Positions 1,742-44,479 of a DNA stretch of 64,000 nt are shown here, piece by piece. Source of the stretch: an uncultured Phascolarctobacterium sp. (GTDB taxonomy: Bacteria > Bacillota > Negativicutes > Acidaminococcales > Acidaminococcaceae); contig CASDXO010000011.1 of assembly GCA_949285135.1 (NCBI GenBank), positions 62,001 to 126,000 of the forward strand. The letters run 5' to 3'. Each line of letters opens with the position of its first letter. The first letter of the stretch is position 1. The notes beneath the pieces are model-generated. The model saw nothing but the letters and a program-made list of their open reading frames with translations. It was not told the DNA's origin and ran no database searches. Both the position numbers and the translations under genes were made by a program.

Positions 1742-3070
1742 ATGGAAAAAATTAAGGAAGGTAATCAGAACGGAAGCTTTACGTCTTCTTTTGGCTTCAT
1801 CATTGCCTGTGTAGGTTCGGCAGTAGGGCTGGGTAATATCTGGCTGTTTCCCTATCGTCTGGGTGAATACGGGGGAGCGGCTTTTTTAATTCCCTATTTG
1901 TTTTTTGTGTTTTTATTTGGCTGGGTGGGTCTTTCGGCAGAGTTTGCTGTCGGGCGTCTGGCCCGTACGGGCACGCTTGGCTCATATAAATATTGCTTTG
2001 CGCAGCGCGGACTGGGCAGGCTGGGCAAGGCACTGGGCTGGATTCCGCTGTTAGGCAGTCTGGGGCTGGCTATTGGGTATGCCATCATCCTCGGCTGGAT
2101 TCTGCGCAGTCTGTGGGGGTCTGTCAGCGGTGAGCTGCTGACAGCCGACCCGGCAGTATATTTTGCGGCGGCCAGCGGTGAATATGGCAGTCTGCTCTGG
2201 CATGTGCTGGTAATCGGCATCACCGGCATCGTACTCTTAATGGGTATTATCAAGGGTATAGAAAAGGTCAGCAAGATACTGATGCCGCTGTTTTTTGTCC
2301 TGTTTATGTTTCTGGCGGTGTGGGTATTCTTTTTGCCCGGCAGTGACAAGGGGTATGAATTCCTTTTTGTGCCTGACTGGGACATGCTGATGCGTGCCGA
2401 TACCTGGGTTATGGCTATGGGGCAGGCGTTCTTCTCGTTGTCCATTACCGGTTCCGGTATGATTGTGTACGGTGCCTATCTGGATAAAAAAGTGGATATT
2501 CCCCGTGCTTCCTTGCGCACGGCCTGCTTTGATACTGTTGCTGCCATGCTGGCAGGGCTTGCCATTATGCCGGCTGTGTTTTCCTTCGGCATTGGTGCGG
2601 ACAGAGGCCCGTCGCTGGTATTTCTGACATTGCCTGCTGTGTTTCAGCAGATGCCGATGGGACAGTTTTTTGCAGTATTTTTCTTTCTGTCCGTATTCTT
2701 TGCGGGCATCACGTCTTTAATCAATATGCTGGAAGCTGTCAGTGAAAGCTGGCAGAAGAATTTCGGTATTGCCAGAAATACTGCCGTCCTGATCTGCTGC
2801 GCACTCAGTCTGGCAGTGGGTATCTTTATTGAAGCAGAGCCTAAAGTTGGCAGCTGGATGGATTTTGTGTCCGTAGTTATCGTGCCTTTTGGTGCGGTGC
2901 TGGGTGCGGTTTCCATCTATTATGTACTGGGCTGGGAACGTATCAGGCAGGAGCTGGAAATCGGTCATGGCAAACTCTCTGCCGCTTTCGGCACTGCCGG
3001 ACGCTATATTTATGTGCCGCTGACGGTACTGGTACTGATACTTGGCTTTGTGTACGGCGGTATCGGCTGA
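1742..3070 (+). CDS. Sodium-dependent transporter, neurotransmitter:sodium symporter family
   Basis: This 442-residue inner-membrane protein belongs to the NSS (LeuT-like) family of Na+-coupled amino-acid or amine symporters. The N-terminus shows the family signature: AxxGSAVGLGNIWLFPY within the first 45 residues, in the unwound TM1 that binds Na+ and substrate. About 11 hydrophobic segments follow, as is common for the shorter bacterial members. AAGGAAG lies a few bases before the ATG. It is monocistronic, with its own promoter and a strong terminator. The substrate cannot be read from sequence; bacterial relatives carry tyrosine, tryptophan or other neutral amino acids. Confidence 0.9.
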   Translation: MEKIKEGNQNGSFTSSFGFIIACVGSAVGLGNIWLFPYRLGEYGGAAFLIPYLFFVFLFGWVGLSAEFAVGRLARTGTLGSYKYCFAQRGLGRLGKALGWIPLLGSLGLAIGYAIILGWILRSLWGSVSGELLTADPAVYFAAASGEYGSLLWHVLVIGITGIVLLMGIIKGIEKVSKILMPLFFVLFMFLAVWVFFLPGSDKGYEFLFVPDWDMLMRADTWVMAMGQAFFSLSITGSGMIVYGAYLDKKVDIPRASLRTACFDTVAAMLAGLAIMPAVFSFGIGADRGPSLVFLTLPAVFQQMPMGQFFAVFFFLSVFFAGITSLINMLEAVSESWQKNFGIARNTAVLICCALSLAVGIFIEAEPKVGSWMDFVSVVIVPFGAVLGAVSIYYVLGWERIRQELEIGHGKLSAAFGTAGRYIYVPLTVLVLILGFVYGGIG

Positions 3071-3197: not shown

Positions 3198-3764
3198 TCA
3201 GGGTTTTCTGTAGCCGCATTTAGGGCAGACGCCGTTTTCGTCCAAGGCGATACCGCACAGCGGGCAACGGTCAATCTGGTTTTTGGTGGTAAATTCTGCA
3301 GAAGCAGCATTTACACCGCTGGTGAAAGTAATTTTAGCGATATTCAGTTTGTCTTTCAGCAGATCGTAAACAATCTTAATCATGCCTTCTACAGTCAGTG
3401 TTTCTTTGGTAACTACAAGGCGGCATTCCGGATAAGCGGTTGCCAGTTCCGTCTTAAATGCTGGGCCGGTCATCTTGTTTTGCGGTGAACCGTTGCGGAT
3501 GCCCTGTTTTTCGTAAACTTGCAGAACTGCTGGCAGTAATGGGTCGTCTTCACGTAAAATCAGTGCATGGTCAAAGTTTTTCAGTACAGACCAGGCTGTT
3601 TTCTGAATTTCATTGCAGGGGAATACCATATTAACGCCGGGTTCGATAGTGTCTTCCACTTCGATGGTCAGTACTCCGGTATGTCCGTGCAGATACTGGG
3701 CTTCACCCTGAAAACCATAAAATCTGTGCGCATACTGCAAATCCAATGTAGTGATACTTCTCAT
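3198..3764 (-). CDS. 6-pyruvoyltetrahydropterin synthase/QueD-family protein with C-terminal zinc ribbon
   Basis: This 188-residue protein has the PTPS fold signature: AHRFYGF near the start, then LHGHTG with two of the zinc-binding histidines. Its C-terminus adds a CPLCG...CPKCG zinc ribbon, which typical QueD (about 120 residues) lacks. Family members make 6-carboxytetrahydropterin (queuosine pathway) or related pterins. The catalytic Cys that normally sits four residues before HGH (CxxxHGH) is alanine here, with a glutamate just before it, so classic QueD activity is doubtful. The ATG at 3764 has AGGAGG 8 bases upstream; upstream codons are leader. The gene stands alone, next to the fur-family gene. 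A pterin-related or RNA-modification role is inference. Confidence 0.75.
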   Translation of the reverse strand: MRSITTLDLQYAHRFYGFQGEAQYLHGHTGVLTIEVEDTIEPGVNMVFPCNEIQKTAWSVLKNFDHALILREDDPLLPAVLQVYEKQGIRNGSPQNKMTGPAFKTELATAYPECRLVVTKETLTVEGMIKIVYDLLKDKLNIAKITFTSGVNAASAEFTTKNQIDRCPLCGIALDENGVCPKCGYRKP

Positions 3765-4689: not shown

Positions 4690-5553
4690 TTATGCCTGTG
4701 CAGCAGCAGTACGCAGATATTTGACAGCTGCACTTCCGGCTGCTGCTCCTTCATATACTGCTTTGGCTACCTGCAGCATGCCGCCGGTACAGTCACCAGC
4801 AGCGAAAAGGCCGGGGATACTGGTTGCTCCGTCAGCGTCGATACCAATAAAGCGTCCTTTCAGCATGGCGCCCAGTTTGCGGGCCATGTCGCTGCTGCCT
4901 GCAGTGCCCAGAGCGATAAAGAGGCCATCCAGTGGCATCGTCGTTCCGTCAGCGAAAGTAACGCTGCTGAGCTTTTCTTCGCCGTTGACAGACTGCAGCC
5001 GGCGTTCATCTGTACTGAAGCCTGCTGCCCGGGCTGCTGCGCCGTCTGCACCGTTAGTCAAAACAGTAACGCTGCCTGCCAGATGACGCAGATAATCAGC
5101 TTCGTGCAGGGCGTAGACACCGCTGCCGAGTACGGCAACCTGCTTGCCGCGGTAGAAAAAGCCGTCACATACTGCGCAGTAGCTGACGCCGTGTCCTTCC
5201 AGACGCTGCAGTCCTTCTGCCTTAACAGTAGCGTTTTTGGTACCGGTAGCCAGGATAACGGCTGGTGCCTCATAAATAGCGGCTGCGGTCTGGACGGAGA
5301 AGCTGCCGGTATAATCGATGGACAGTACTTCTTCGTGACGAATATCAGCTCCCAGAGCAGCTGCCTGTGCCAGCCCGGTTTGATACAGGTCTGGGCCGGC
5401 GGCTGTGACTCCGTAGTAGTTTTCAATACGGTGAGCACGAGTCAGTGCGCCGGGGCCGTTCTCCAGCAGCAGCACTCCGATGCCGGCGCGCAGCGCATAT
5501 AAGGCGGCAGATACTCCTGCCGGGCCGCCGCCGATGATGATGAGTTCTGTCAT
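4690..5553 (-). CDS. trxB: Thioredoxin reductase-like flavoprotein, possibly ferredoxin-dependent
   Basis: This 287-residue FAD protein has GGGPAGVSAALYA at the N-terminus (FAD dinucleotide fold), the redox-active CAVCD pair near residue 126, and the C-terminal AAGDCTGG FAD motif. The second nucleotide fold reads GSGVYALHEA, and the HRRxxxR motif that binds the NADPH phosphate is absent; the segment after it reads VTVLTNGADG. Loss of these motifs is the hallmark described for ferredoxin-linked flavin thioredoxin reductases (FFTR) of clostridia. This would fit an anaerobe with abundant reduced ferredoxin. AGAAGG precedes the ATG by 8 bases. It forms an operon with trxA. The electron donor is inference. 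Confidence 0.85.
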   Translation of the reverse strand: MTELIIIGGGPAGVSAALYALRAGIGVLLLENGPGALTRAHRIENYYGVTAAGPDLYQTGLAQAAALGADIRHEEVLSIDYTGSFSVQTAAAIYEAPAVILATGTKNATVKAEGLQRLEGHGVSYCAVCDGFFYRGKQVAVLGSGVYALHEADYLRHLAGSVTVLTNGADGAAARAAGFSTDERRLQSVNGEEKLSSVTFADGTTMPLDGLFIALGTAGSSDMARKLGAMLKGRFIGIDADGATSIPGLFAAGDCTGGMLQVAKAVYEGAAAGSAAVKYLRTAAAQA

Positions 5554-41882: not shown

Positions 41883-41903
41883 GCTTAAATTTTACAAAAA
41901 GAA

Positions 41904-41945
41904 GAAAACGAGTGTTTGGTATTATTGCCAAATACTCGTTTTTGT
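41904..41945 (+). terminator. Terminator of the usp pair
   Basis: AAACGAGTGTTTGG pairs with CCAAATACTCGTTT (one G-T) and is followed by TT. Confidence 0.88.
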
Positions 41946-42076
41946 GTTATATATTTAATATGTTATGTAATTATGATAGATTACAGTGATTTAAATTGTT
42001 GTTATATATAATATTGTAATTAATGTAAAATCAATATTTGTTATGATATATAGGATTTTTTATAACAGAGGTGTAA

Positions 42077-42922
42077 ATGATGGCTAAGAATAAACTGGTT
42101 GTACCAGTTGTGAAATGGGTTGGGGGAAAACGGCAACTTTTAGACGAAATTACTCCGCTCCTTCCAAAACGAATTACCACATATTGTGAGCCGTTTTTGG
42201 GTGGAGGGGCTGTACTTTTTTCTGTTCAGCCTTCAAAAGCCATTGTTAATGATTTAAATAAAGATCTAATTGTTGTGTATGAAGTTATACGCGATGATGT
42301 TGAAACGTTAATAGAATCATTGAAGAAACATGAAAATACTTCTGATTATTTTTATTCGATAAGAGACATGGACAGAAATAAAGACAGTTATAAGTTATTG
42401 TCTAAAGTTGATCGTGCTTCAAGATTGCTTTATCTTAATAAAACTTGTTTCAATGGGTTATTTAGAGTTAATTCTTCAGGTGAATTTAATTCTCCATTTG
42501 GACACTATAAGAATCCTAATATTGTAAATGAACCTGTTTTACGGGCTGTAAGTAAATATTTTAATTCTAATAATATAACTTTTTATAGCGGTGATTTTTA
42601 TAAGACTATTGAAAATATCGGTAGAGGTACATTTGTTTATTTAGACCCGCCTTATGACCCGGTTTCTGATACTGCAAATTTTACCGGCTATAATAAAGGT
42701 GGTTTCGATAAAAAAGAGCAGTTACGATTAAAAGAGTATTGTGATGAACTGACAAGGCAGGGTATTAAGTTTTTACTTTCTAACTCAGCAACGGAGTTTA
42801 TAAAATCATTATATAGTGAGTATGATATTCATATTGTACAAGCAAAACGGTCAATAAATTCTAATGGTAGTAAACGTGGTGCAGTAGATGAGGTGCTTAT
42901 AAGAAATTATGGGACAAAATGA
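42077..42922 (+). CDS. DNA adenine methylase, Dam/DpnM (D12) class
   Basis: This 281-residue methyltransferase has motif X/I KWVGGKRQLLDEITPLLP near residue 13, PFLGGGAVLF near residue 38 and the catalytic DPPY in FVYLDPPYDP near residue 192. FTGYNKGGFDKKEQLRL follows, as in Dam-type enzymes. It transfers methyl from SAM to N6 of adenine; the D12 class often targets GATC but the site cannot be read here. GAGGTG precedes two adjacent ATGs. It overlaps the restriction-endonuclease gene by 14 bases. The gene is far more AT-rich than flanking host genes, so it is probably acquired. Confidence 0.93.
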   Translation: MMAKNKLVVPVVKWVGGKRQLLDEITPLLPKRITTYCEPFLGGGAVLFSVQPSKAIVNDLNKDLIVVYEVIRDDVETLIESLKKHENTSDYFYSIRDMDRNKDSYKLLSKVDRASRLLYLNKTCFNGLFRVNSSGEFNSPFGHYKNPNIVNEPVLRAVSKYFNSNNITFYSGDFYKTIENIGRGTFVYLDPPYDPVSDTANFTGYNKGGFDKKEQLRLKEYCDELTRQGIKFLLSNSATEFIKSLYSEYDIHIVQAKRSINSNGSKRGAVDEVLIRNYGTK

Positions 42923-44180
42923 TATTGCATGGGAAAATTTATTTGACAAATATAATATTCTCAATGAAATAAAGAACAATGGTGAATTTATTATATCTGC
43001 TAAGCAGATTAAAGAGTTTAGAGAACCACGGTTAATGACTAAGTTTGATCATAAAATAAATTTACCCCAAATATTCTTTAAAAATAAATTAGCGATTTTG
43101 CCAATAAGTAGAGGAGATTATATTATTTCTTCGTTTAATGCTTACAAAAATTTTGATGTGCAAAATAATGATTTTCAAAGAGTTAATATCCCAAGCCATA
43201 TTCAAAGCCTTATTCCAAAGTTTATTGTAAGTGAAGCAATAGCGTTAAATTGTGCTAATGCCTGTGGCATTTTAAATGATTTTTTAGAAGATGAAGAAAT
43301 TATTCCTACTGTTAATGGAAGAATGGGTTCAGGCAGTTTTGCTTTCAGTATTGATGTATTAGATGGTAGAAAAAATATAAAAGTAAAAAATTCTCAAATA
43401 GAGATTGACGCTGCATACGAGGGGATTAATTATCTTTCATTAATTGAAGCCAAAAAAGACTTATCTGAAGATTTTCTTGTAAGGCAGCTTTATTATCCTT
43501 TTCGTGTATGGAATGACAGAGTTACAAAAAAAGTAAAAAATATTTTTATGATTTTTTCTAATGGTATGTTTTATTTATATCAATATGAATTTGGTGATCC
43601 GTTGAATTATAATTCTCTGTACTTAGTAAAACAAAAAAATTATTTAATTGCTACGGAAATTTATTTGACAGATATTGAAGCTATTTTAAATAATGTTAAT
43701 ATTGTAAAGGAGCCTGATATATCGTTTCCACAAGCTGATTGCATGTCCCGAATTATTAATCTTATTGAGTTATTGAGTGAAAAGTCAATGACAAAGCAAG
43801 ATATAACATCAGAATATGCTTTTGATCAAAGGCAAACTAATTATTATACTGATGCAGGAAGATATCTTGAACTCATAGATAAAAGCCATGATGAAAATGG
43901 GAATGTGCTTTTTGAGTTATCGTCTTATGGACGTTATATCATGGGATTAGAATATAGAGAAAGGCAATTAGCTATTGTTAAGCAGATTTTAAAGCATAAA
44001 GTATTTAATGAGACTTTAAAGTTATATTTAAAAACTTGTGAAATGCCCAGCAAAGAGAAGATTGTTCAGATTATGAAAGAATCTAACTTATACCATGTAG
44101 AAGCTGATAGTACATATTTTCGTAGAGCTTCAACAGTTGGGGGATGGCTCAATTGGATTTTTGACATTATTGATGTATAA
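42909..44180 (+). CDS. Putative type II restriction endonuclease, PD-(D/E)xK fold
   Basis: This 423-residue protein is encoded directly behind, and overlapping, the Dam-type methylase. A nuclease motif is visible: QIEIDAAYEG near residue 162 (Asp), then SLIEAKKDLSEDFLVRQLYYP near residue 175, with the ExK of a PD-(D/E)xK site and a following Q. The N-terminal 140 residues could recognise DNA. The C-terminal 120 residues look like a winged helix followed by a SYGRYIMGLE segment. I do not recognise a characterised family; overlap with a methylase and shared AT-rich composition make restriction endonuclease the best reading. Confidence 0.8.
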   Translation: MGQNDIAWENLFDKYNILNEIKNNGEFIISAKQIKEFREPRLMTKFDHKINLPQIFFKNKLAILPISRGDYIISSFNAYKNFDVQNNDFQRVNIPSHIQSLIPKFIVSEAIALNCANACGILNDFLEDEEIIPTVNGRMGSGSFAFSIDVLDGRKNIKVKNSQIEIDAAYEGINYLSLIEAKKDLSEDFLVRQLYYPFRVWNDRVTKKVKNIFMIFSNGMFYLYQYEFGDPLNYNSLYLVKQKNYLIATEIYLTDIEAILNNVNIVKEPDISFPQADCMSRIINLIELLSEKSMTKQDITSEYAFDQRQTNYYTDAGRYLELIDKSHDENGNVLFELSSYGRYIMGLEYRERQLAIVKQILKHKVFNETLKLYLKTCEMPSKEKIVQIMKESNLYHVEADSTYFRRASTVGGWLNWIFDIIDV

Positions 44181-44208
44181 TATTTGTGCAGAAATGAGGT
44201 GTATTCAT

Positions 44209-44391
44209 ATGACAACAAATAATGATCGCCCAATTATACAATCACATGGCTATAACGGAAGTGAGCCAACACGCATATGTCCGCATTGTGGACAGGAAAA
44301 ACCTTTGAGTGACTTTGGTTATAGACAAATGACTGAAGATGGTCCGATAAGAAATCAATCATGGTGTAAGCAGTGTAGAAGCAAAGCTTAA
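44209..44391 (+). CDS. Small zinc-finger protein behind the restriction-modification pair
   Basis: This 60-residue protein has a RICPHCGQEKPLSDFGYR segment and a C-terminal WCKQCRSKA, which form a four-cysteine zinc site of the kind found in small proteins near restriction or HNH nuclease genes. The start at 44209 has GAGG 9 bases upstream. It begins 28 bases after the endonuclease and ends before a strong terminator, so it belongs to the same mobile unit. It could be a controller or an accessory DNA-binding protein; neither role is proven. Confidence 0.75.
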   Translation: MTTNNDRPIIQSHGYNGSEPTRICPHCGQEKPLSDFGYRQMTEDGPIRNQSWCKQCRSKA

Positions 44392-44414
44392 TGCATGATA
44401 AGTAAAAAGATGTT

Positions 44415-44458
44415 AAAAAAGTATCGCTTATTTTATTAAAAATAAGCGATACTTTTTG
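44415..44458. terminator. Bidirectional terminator closing the restriction-modification unit
   Basis: Long arms (AAAAAGTATCGCTTATTTT and its complement) have T-runs on both strands, between convergent units. Confidence 0.93.
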
Positions 44459-44479
44459 TTTTAGTTGAACATAATGATA

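Follow-up and report, generated by a model that had tools for sequence, protein, structure and literature searches.

Within the window, by which we mean the whole 64,000-nucleotide stretch of DNA analyzed here, we identified an inserted block encoding a Dam-type adenine methylase (M), a putative type II restriction endonuclease (R), and a 60-residue zinc-ribbon-like protein (Z). The cassette is an ordinary one of a known family, and its new part is the optional, travelling third gene, which recurs beside Dam-type restriction systems. We divide about equally between belief and doubt in the explanation taken as a whole, in which a type II cassette was inserted and Z is an exchangeable accessory, most likely a nucleic-acid-binding regulator.

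The inserted block and its methylase and nuclease genes

The block was delimited by congener comparison and composition to ~2.59 kb (positions 41887-44478, no strand assigned). Its GC content is 29.7% compared with 48.5% for the window, with local values of ~0.28-0.31 inside and ~0.5 outside. A terminator scan placed forward-strand terminator-like stems at the left end of the block (41904-41943) and 3' of Z (44416-44457), four such sites being found in the scanned region where 1.0 was expected; the AT-rich, terminator-bounded block of the preliminary description was thus recovered. The open reading frame coordinates also confirm the described order of a methylase, a nuclease that shares 14 bases with it, and a small four-cysteine protein. 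M (42077-42922, 281 aa) and R (42909-44180, 423 aa) both start with ATG on the forward strand and overlap at 42909-42922. Z (44209-44391) is co-oriented with R, starts 28 bp downstream of it, and is preceded by a ribosome-binding-like GAGGTG. The listed TTG start of Z at 44137 represents an upstream extension, and the ATG at 44209, giving 60 aa, is preferred. The three genes would probably be co-transcribed.

In the one congener compared (G001), the same flanking genes, a usp pair and a DUF1638 gene, lie ~45 bp apart, with different sequence and a short terminator between them, and the block is thus extra DNA in the window. The block contains no visible transposase, integrase, or target-site duplication. 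Among 61 related genomes, the R family is present in the window's own genome alone, and copies of the family were found on plasmids (23 records) and in prophage-like contigs. The empty congener site and the plasmid and prophage copies argue for mobility of the unit and, together with the protein families, support its earlier designation as a mobile restriction unit, probably a type II restriction-modification cassette acquired horizontally.

M belongs to the D12/Dam family of adenine methylases and contains a DPPY motif. It matches PF02086 (MethyltransfD12, E 7.6e-74) and, above the cut-off, TIGR00571 dam (E 3e-94), and the nearest solved structure is M.DpnII (2dpm, E 4.8e-76), to which the DPPY motif aligns; its identification as a Dam-type methylase is borne out by these matches. 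Based on the similarity to M.DpnII and Dam, the target of M is likely GATC, in which it would methylate the adenine. M.EcoRV, also a D12 enzyme, reads GATATC. In the window outside the block, GATC occurs 63 times against 183 expected from a Markov count, or 0.34 of expectation, and it is scarce in other stretches of the host chromosome (G000) as well. The block-less congener G001 is similarly low (0.46); the scarcity was therefore dropped as a footprint of the cassette and is no evidence for the specificity of R. Across related genomes of the family, the ratio varies between 0.08 and 1.08, a spread that would fit repeated gain and loss of GATC systems.

R matches DUF6996, the PD-(D/E)xK-like DUF6997, and DUF7226, the winged-helix part, with 111.7, 217.8, and 189.8 bits, respectively (cut-off 27), and covers 418 of 426 positions of the PADLOC model REase_II PDLC03513 (E 1.6e-111). 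The D...ExK site pointed out previously is present as D167...E180-A-K182, with D167, E180, and K182 invariant in six of six relatives. The predicted model of R has a mean pLDDT of 75.8 (residues 134-164 mostly <50) and a strand-helix order that fits PD-(D/E)xK, and its winged-helix part matched MarR-type proteins at a score of Z about 8 over 70-90 aligned residues, in support of the winged-helix-like C-terminal region described earlier. The best nuclease matches of the model in the PDB were the Cas4-like 9iac_A and 9iab_A, which are weak (E about 0.01-0.02); the search with whole R gave nothing at E <0.001, the list being filled by MarR-like winged helices, and no real relative of the R sequence was found among the sequences of solved structures. 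PF04556, the DpnII domain, is absent from the Pfam matches of R and from the window's genome. R is thus plausibly a PD-(D/E)xK nuclease, which would cut the unmethylated site. Pfam and PADLOC already contain its family, which it matches over its full length, and the initial impression of a novel-looking nuclease is not sustained.

R was not found with a query of the phage collection or with a single-sequence query of the viral contigs, in which an alignment query found five copies. On a Mammaliicoccus plasmid (L008, 2992-5281), M and R of the DUF6997-type family are divergent and do not form one operon, and the R homologue is annotated as a 'translation elongation factor'.

Occurrence of Z and its proposed exchange between systems

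Z contains the cysteine pairs C24xxC27 and C53xxC56, and its family shares a nearly constant lead, GYNGSEPTR[IV]CP (seven sequences), and the end RNQSWCKxCR, which together suggest a zinc ribbon. Between the window and Megamonas, dN is 0.13 and dS 1.8; such purifying selection in homologue comparisons marks Z as a real gene. AlphaFold predicted Z with low confidence (pLDDT 64), and its model is too weak to use.

Most copies of the M-R pair lack Z. Among 30 loci fetched by R-only queries, a set that leaves out the window and includes three loci with <400 bases downstream (L015, L017, and L025), Z was present in two, on a Megamonas plasmid and on the viral contig 3300050587_000051. It was found in none of the 16 other R-family genomes of a 398-genome phylum sample. 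These counts make Z optional, and an obligatory partnership with R was rejected. They also bear on the proposal that Z is a specificity or DNA-binding subunit of a heteromeric R. PHROG matches do place ribbons related to Z within HNH and endonuclease VII proteins of phages, and one such ribbon stands at the end of a helix-turn-helix (HTH) protein on enterobacterial plasmids; however, R homologues as close as 55-70% identity wholly lack Z (L002-L005), and Z accompanies unrelated nucleases, which leaves a subunit role very improbable.

Z-only queries covered plasmids, viral contigs, 380 genomes of the class, the 398-genome phylum sample, and 23 genomes of another class. The family was cut at E <= ~1e-18 with a model built from the same sequences, and the cut is therefore partly circular. 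Weaker matches were set aside before counting (L029, L032, L036, L038, L039, L047-L052, and L100-L103), with no D12 system adjoining them in the sequence examined. A sequence-pattern search of the viral contigs returned the same three canonical contigs. Beyond the window, the plasmids, viral contigs, and class genomes gave 12 places of the family, eight of which adjoin a Dam-type restriction system with one of three nuclease families. With DUF6997 nucleases, the order is M-R-Z on the Megamonas plasmid, in L044, and in G753, while the contig of L046 begins inside R. With DpnII, L045 has the order M-Z-DpnII-second methylase (PF04556 by Pfam), and in G051 and G631 (PF04556 by family search) a shortened version resembling Z separates M from DpnII. 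On a Leuconostoc plasmid, Z is divergent from a D12 methylase gene, which is followed by a gene whose 199-aa product matches PDDEXK_11 below threshold; in four examined of six other plasmids, no annotated Z adjoined the PDDEXK_11-like nuclease. The remaining four places (G581, G578, G605, and G028) hold Z alone, the right flank of G605 being only 0.5 kb, and Z is thus not exclusive to restriction. Two of the three lone-Z genomes of genus g319 are without a D12 methylase, and the third has a weak 69-position match. In the 23 genomes of the class of G078, Z was not found, in a search without a positive control that carries little weight.

A further adjacency, outside the count of 12, came from a DpnII query (G622, L084); its Z-like gene, at 9e-17, narrowly misses the cut and scores like some of the excluded phage genes. 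In total, a Z-like gene is present in two (G631 and G622) of the 30 DpnII loci retrieved from the class. On the Megamonas plasmid (L006), a TnpB gene (1911-3020) lies directly upstream of the M-R-Z cassette.

The preliminary description had raised the question of whether the small gene co-occurs with this methylase-nuclease pair and had suggested a controller or a third component. Recurrence beside Dam-type systems of three nuclease families lends this suggestion partial support, but Z is missing from most M-R copies and sometimes stands alone. These last two observations favor an alternative in which Z is a moron independent of restriction, a small zinc-ribbon gene of phages or plasmids that accumulates in the cargo slots also used by restriction cassettes without any functional tie to them, as do the distant relatives of Z in phage genomes, including those between antiterminator and holin genes in E. 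coli, and the slot common to two Z-bearing prophage cassettes described below. Nevertheless, in the DpnII cassettes L045, L059, L060/L074, and L084, the operon itself holds Z or a Z-like gene, placed between M and R, and in four DUF6997 systems Z comes 27-39 bp after R. Moreover, eight of 12 places beside one functional class seem far above chance placement, as judged informally and not by a formal test. We regard the moron explanation as rather unlikely.

The favored reading, that Z is an exchangeable accessory, draws on comparisons between system types. Z is 65-83% identical between the DUF6997, DpnII (L045), and Leuconostoc systems, whereas M is only 40-48% identical and R gives no meaningful alignment. 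The IMG/VR contigs L067 and L068 derive from related prophages: next to the cassette slot, 5.4 kb of their DNA is 82% identical, and their promoters are 81% identical over 47 bp. Beside the terminase genes, this one slot is occupied by M-R-Z of the DUF6997 type in one prophage and M-Z-DpnII-M2 in the other, both with Z. The identity of Z across system types and the different cassettes in one slot are best explained if Z travels with GATC-type cassettes or is gained anew along with them; a single frozen operon would explain them less well. Z would then be a genuine cargo gene of an accessory family exchanged among Dam-type cassettes, whatever their nuclease.

Among the distant Z-like genes of phages and of E. 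coli plasmids and prophages, no adjoining D12 system was seen. In E. coli lambdoid prophages (L164-L166, 3429-3671), the Z-like gene has 80 codons and is annotated as hypothetical protein WP_001306866.1; its DNA query matched 17 of 5426 genomes. In two prophage-like contigs, a Z-like gene (L100, 3935-4174; L101, 3929-4174) immediately precedes a gene for a DNA methylase, which in L100 is an N6/N4 methylase by Pfam. On small E. coli plasmids (L102, ~3363-3599; L103, ~4863-5099), the Z-like open reading frame is missing from the plasmid gene table.

Candidate roles of Z

Z is most likely a small nucleic-acid-binding zinc ribbon that would tune expression of the cassette, affecting the timing of M versus R at the promoter or mRNA level. 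The lone copies and the many Z-less systems count against a regulatory role, as does the lack of a common upstream motif: a shared operator was sought upstream of six Z-bearing cassettes and none was found. More broadly, and with more doubt than confidence, Z may found a modular family of zinc-ribbon controllers for Dam/GATC cassettes, interchangeable among at least three unrelated nuclease types and serving safe establishment in a new host. If Z moves between unrelated systems, it would serve them in common as a control or safety part, whatever the nuclease type, with a bearing on how a cassette can establish in a naive cell and leave it alive; even as a hitchhiker, it would mark cargo slots in prophages and plasmids.

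Z could also act on activity instead of expression, enhancing modification or tempering restriction during cassette entry in the manner of Lar or Ral. The best PHROG match of Z carries the label Lar-like restriction alleviation protein (E 5e-7), and the lone copy L062 weakly matches the Lar model PF14354 (E 0.022). The PHROG match spans only ~36 positions, however, and PF14354 is neither among the Pfam matches of Z nor matched at E 0.001 anywhere in the window's genome (G000), while profile-profile alignment with hhalign gave a probability of 17.5 over 14 columns. Z was accordingly rejected as a Lar protein, and a Lar- or Ral-like action appears improbable.

Comparison with known systems

Two-gene GATC restriction systems are textbook material. 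Compared with the DUF6996/DUF6997/DUF7226 endonuclease family (PDLC03513), R is the same over its whole length, with a Dam-type M as partner and mostly an M-R operon; R itself is no different, but most family copies lack Z. With the DpnII/MboI-type GATC systems, the cassette shares an M whose nearest solved relative is M.DpnII, and some DpnII operons likewise hold Z or a Z-like gene. It differs from them in that R is not PF04556 and the block is without a second methylase. Judging from titles and abstract openings, we found no publication on the Z gene.

Z resembles the restriction controller (C) proteins in being a small third gene in the operon. C proteins bind DNA through HTH motifs (PMC12707154), whereas Z is a four-cysteine ribbon, no HTH families being among its Pfam matches, and it was rejected as a C protein on this ground. 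In phage Mu, the small zinc-finger protein Com governs how a neighbouring DNA-modification gene is expressed (PMC6483171). Com binds mom mRNA. The two are alike in description, as small zinc-finger proteins by a modification gene. C proteins and Mu Com are the known models for the role proposed here, in which Z would bind nucleic acid and regulate the cassette in which it travels.
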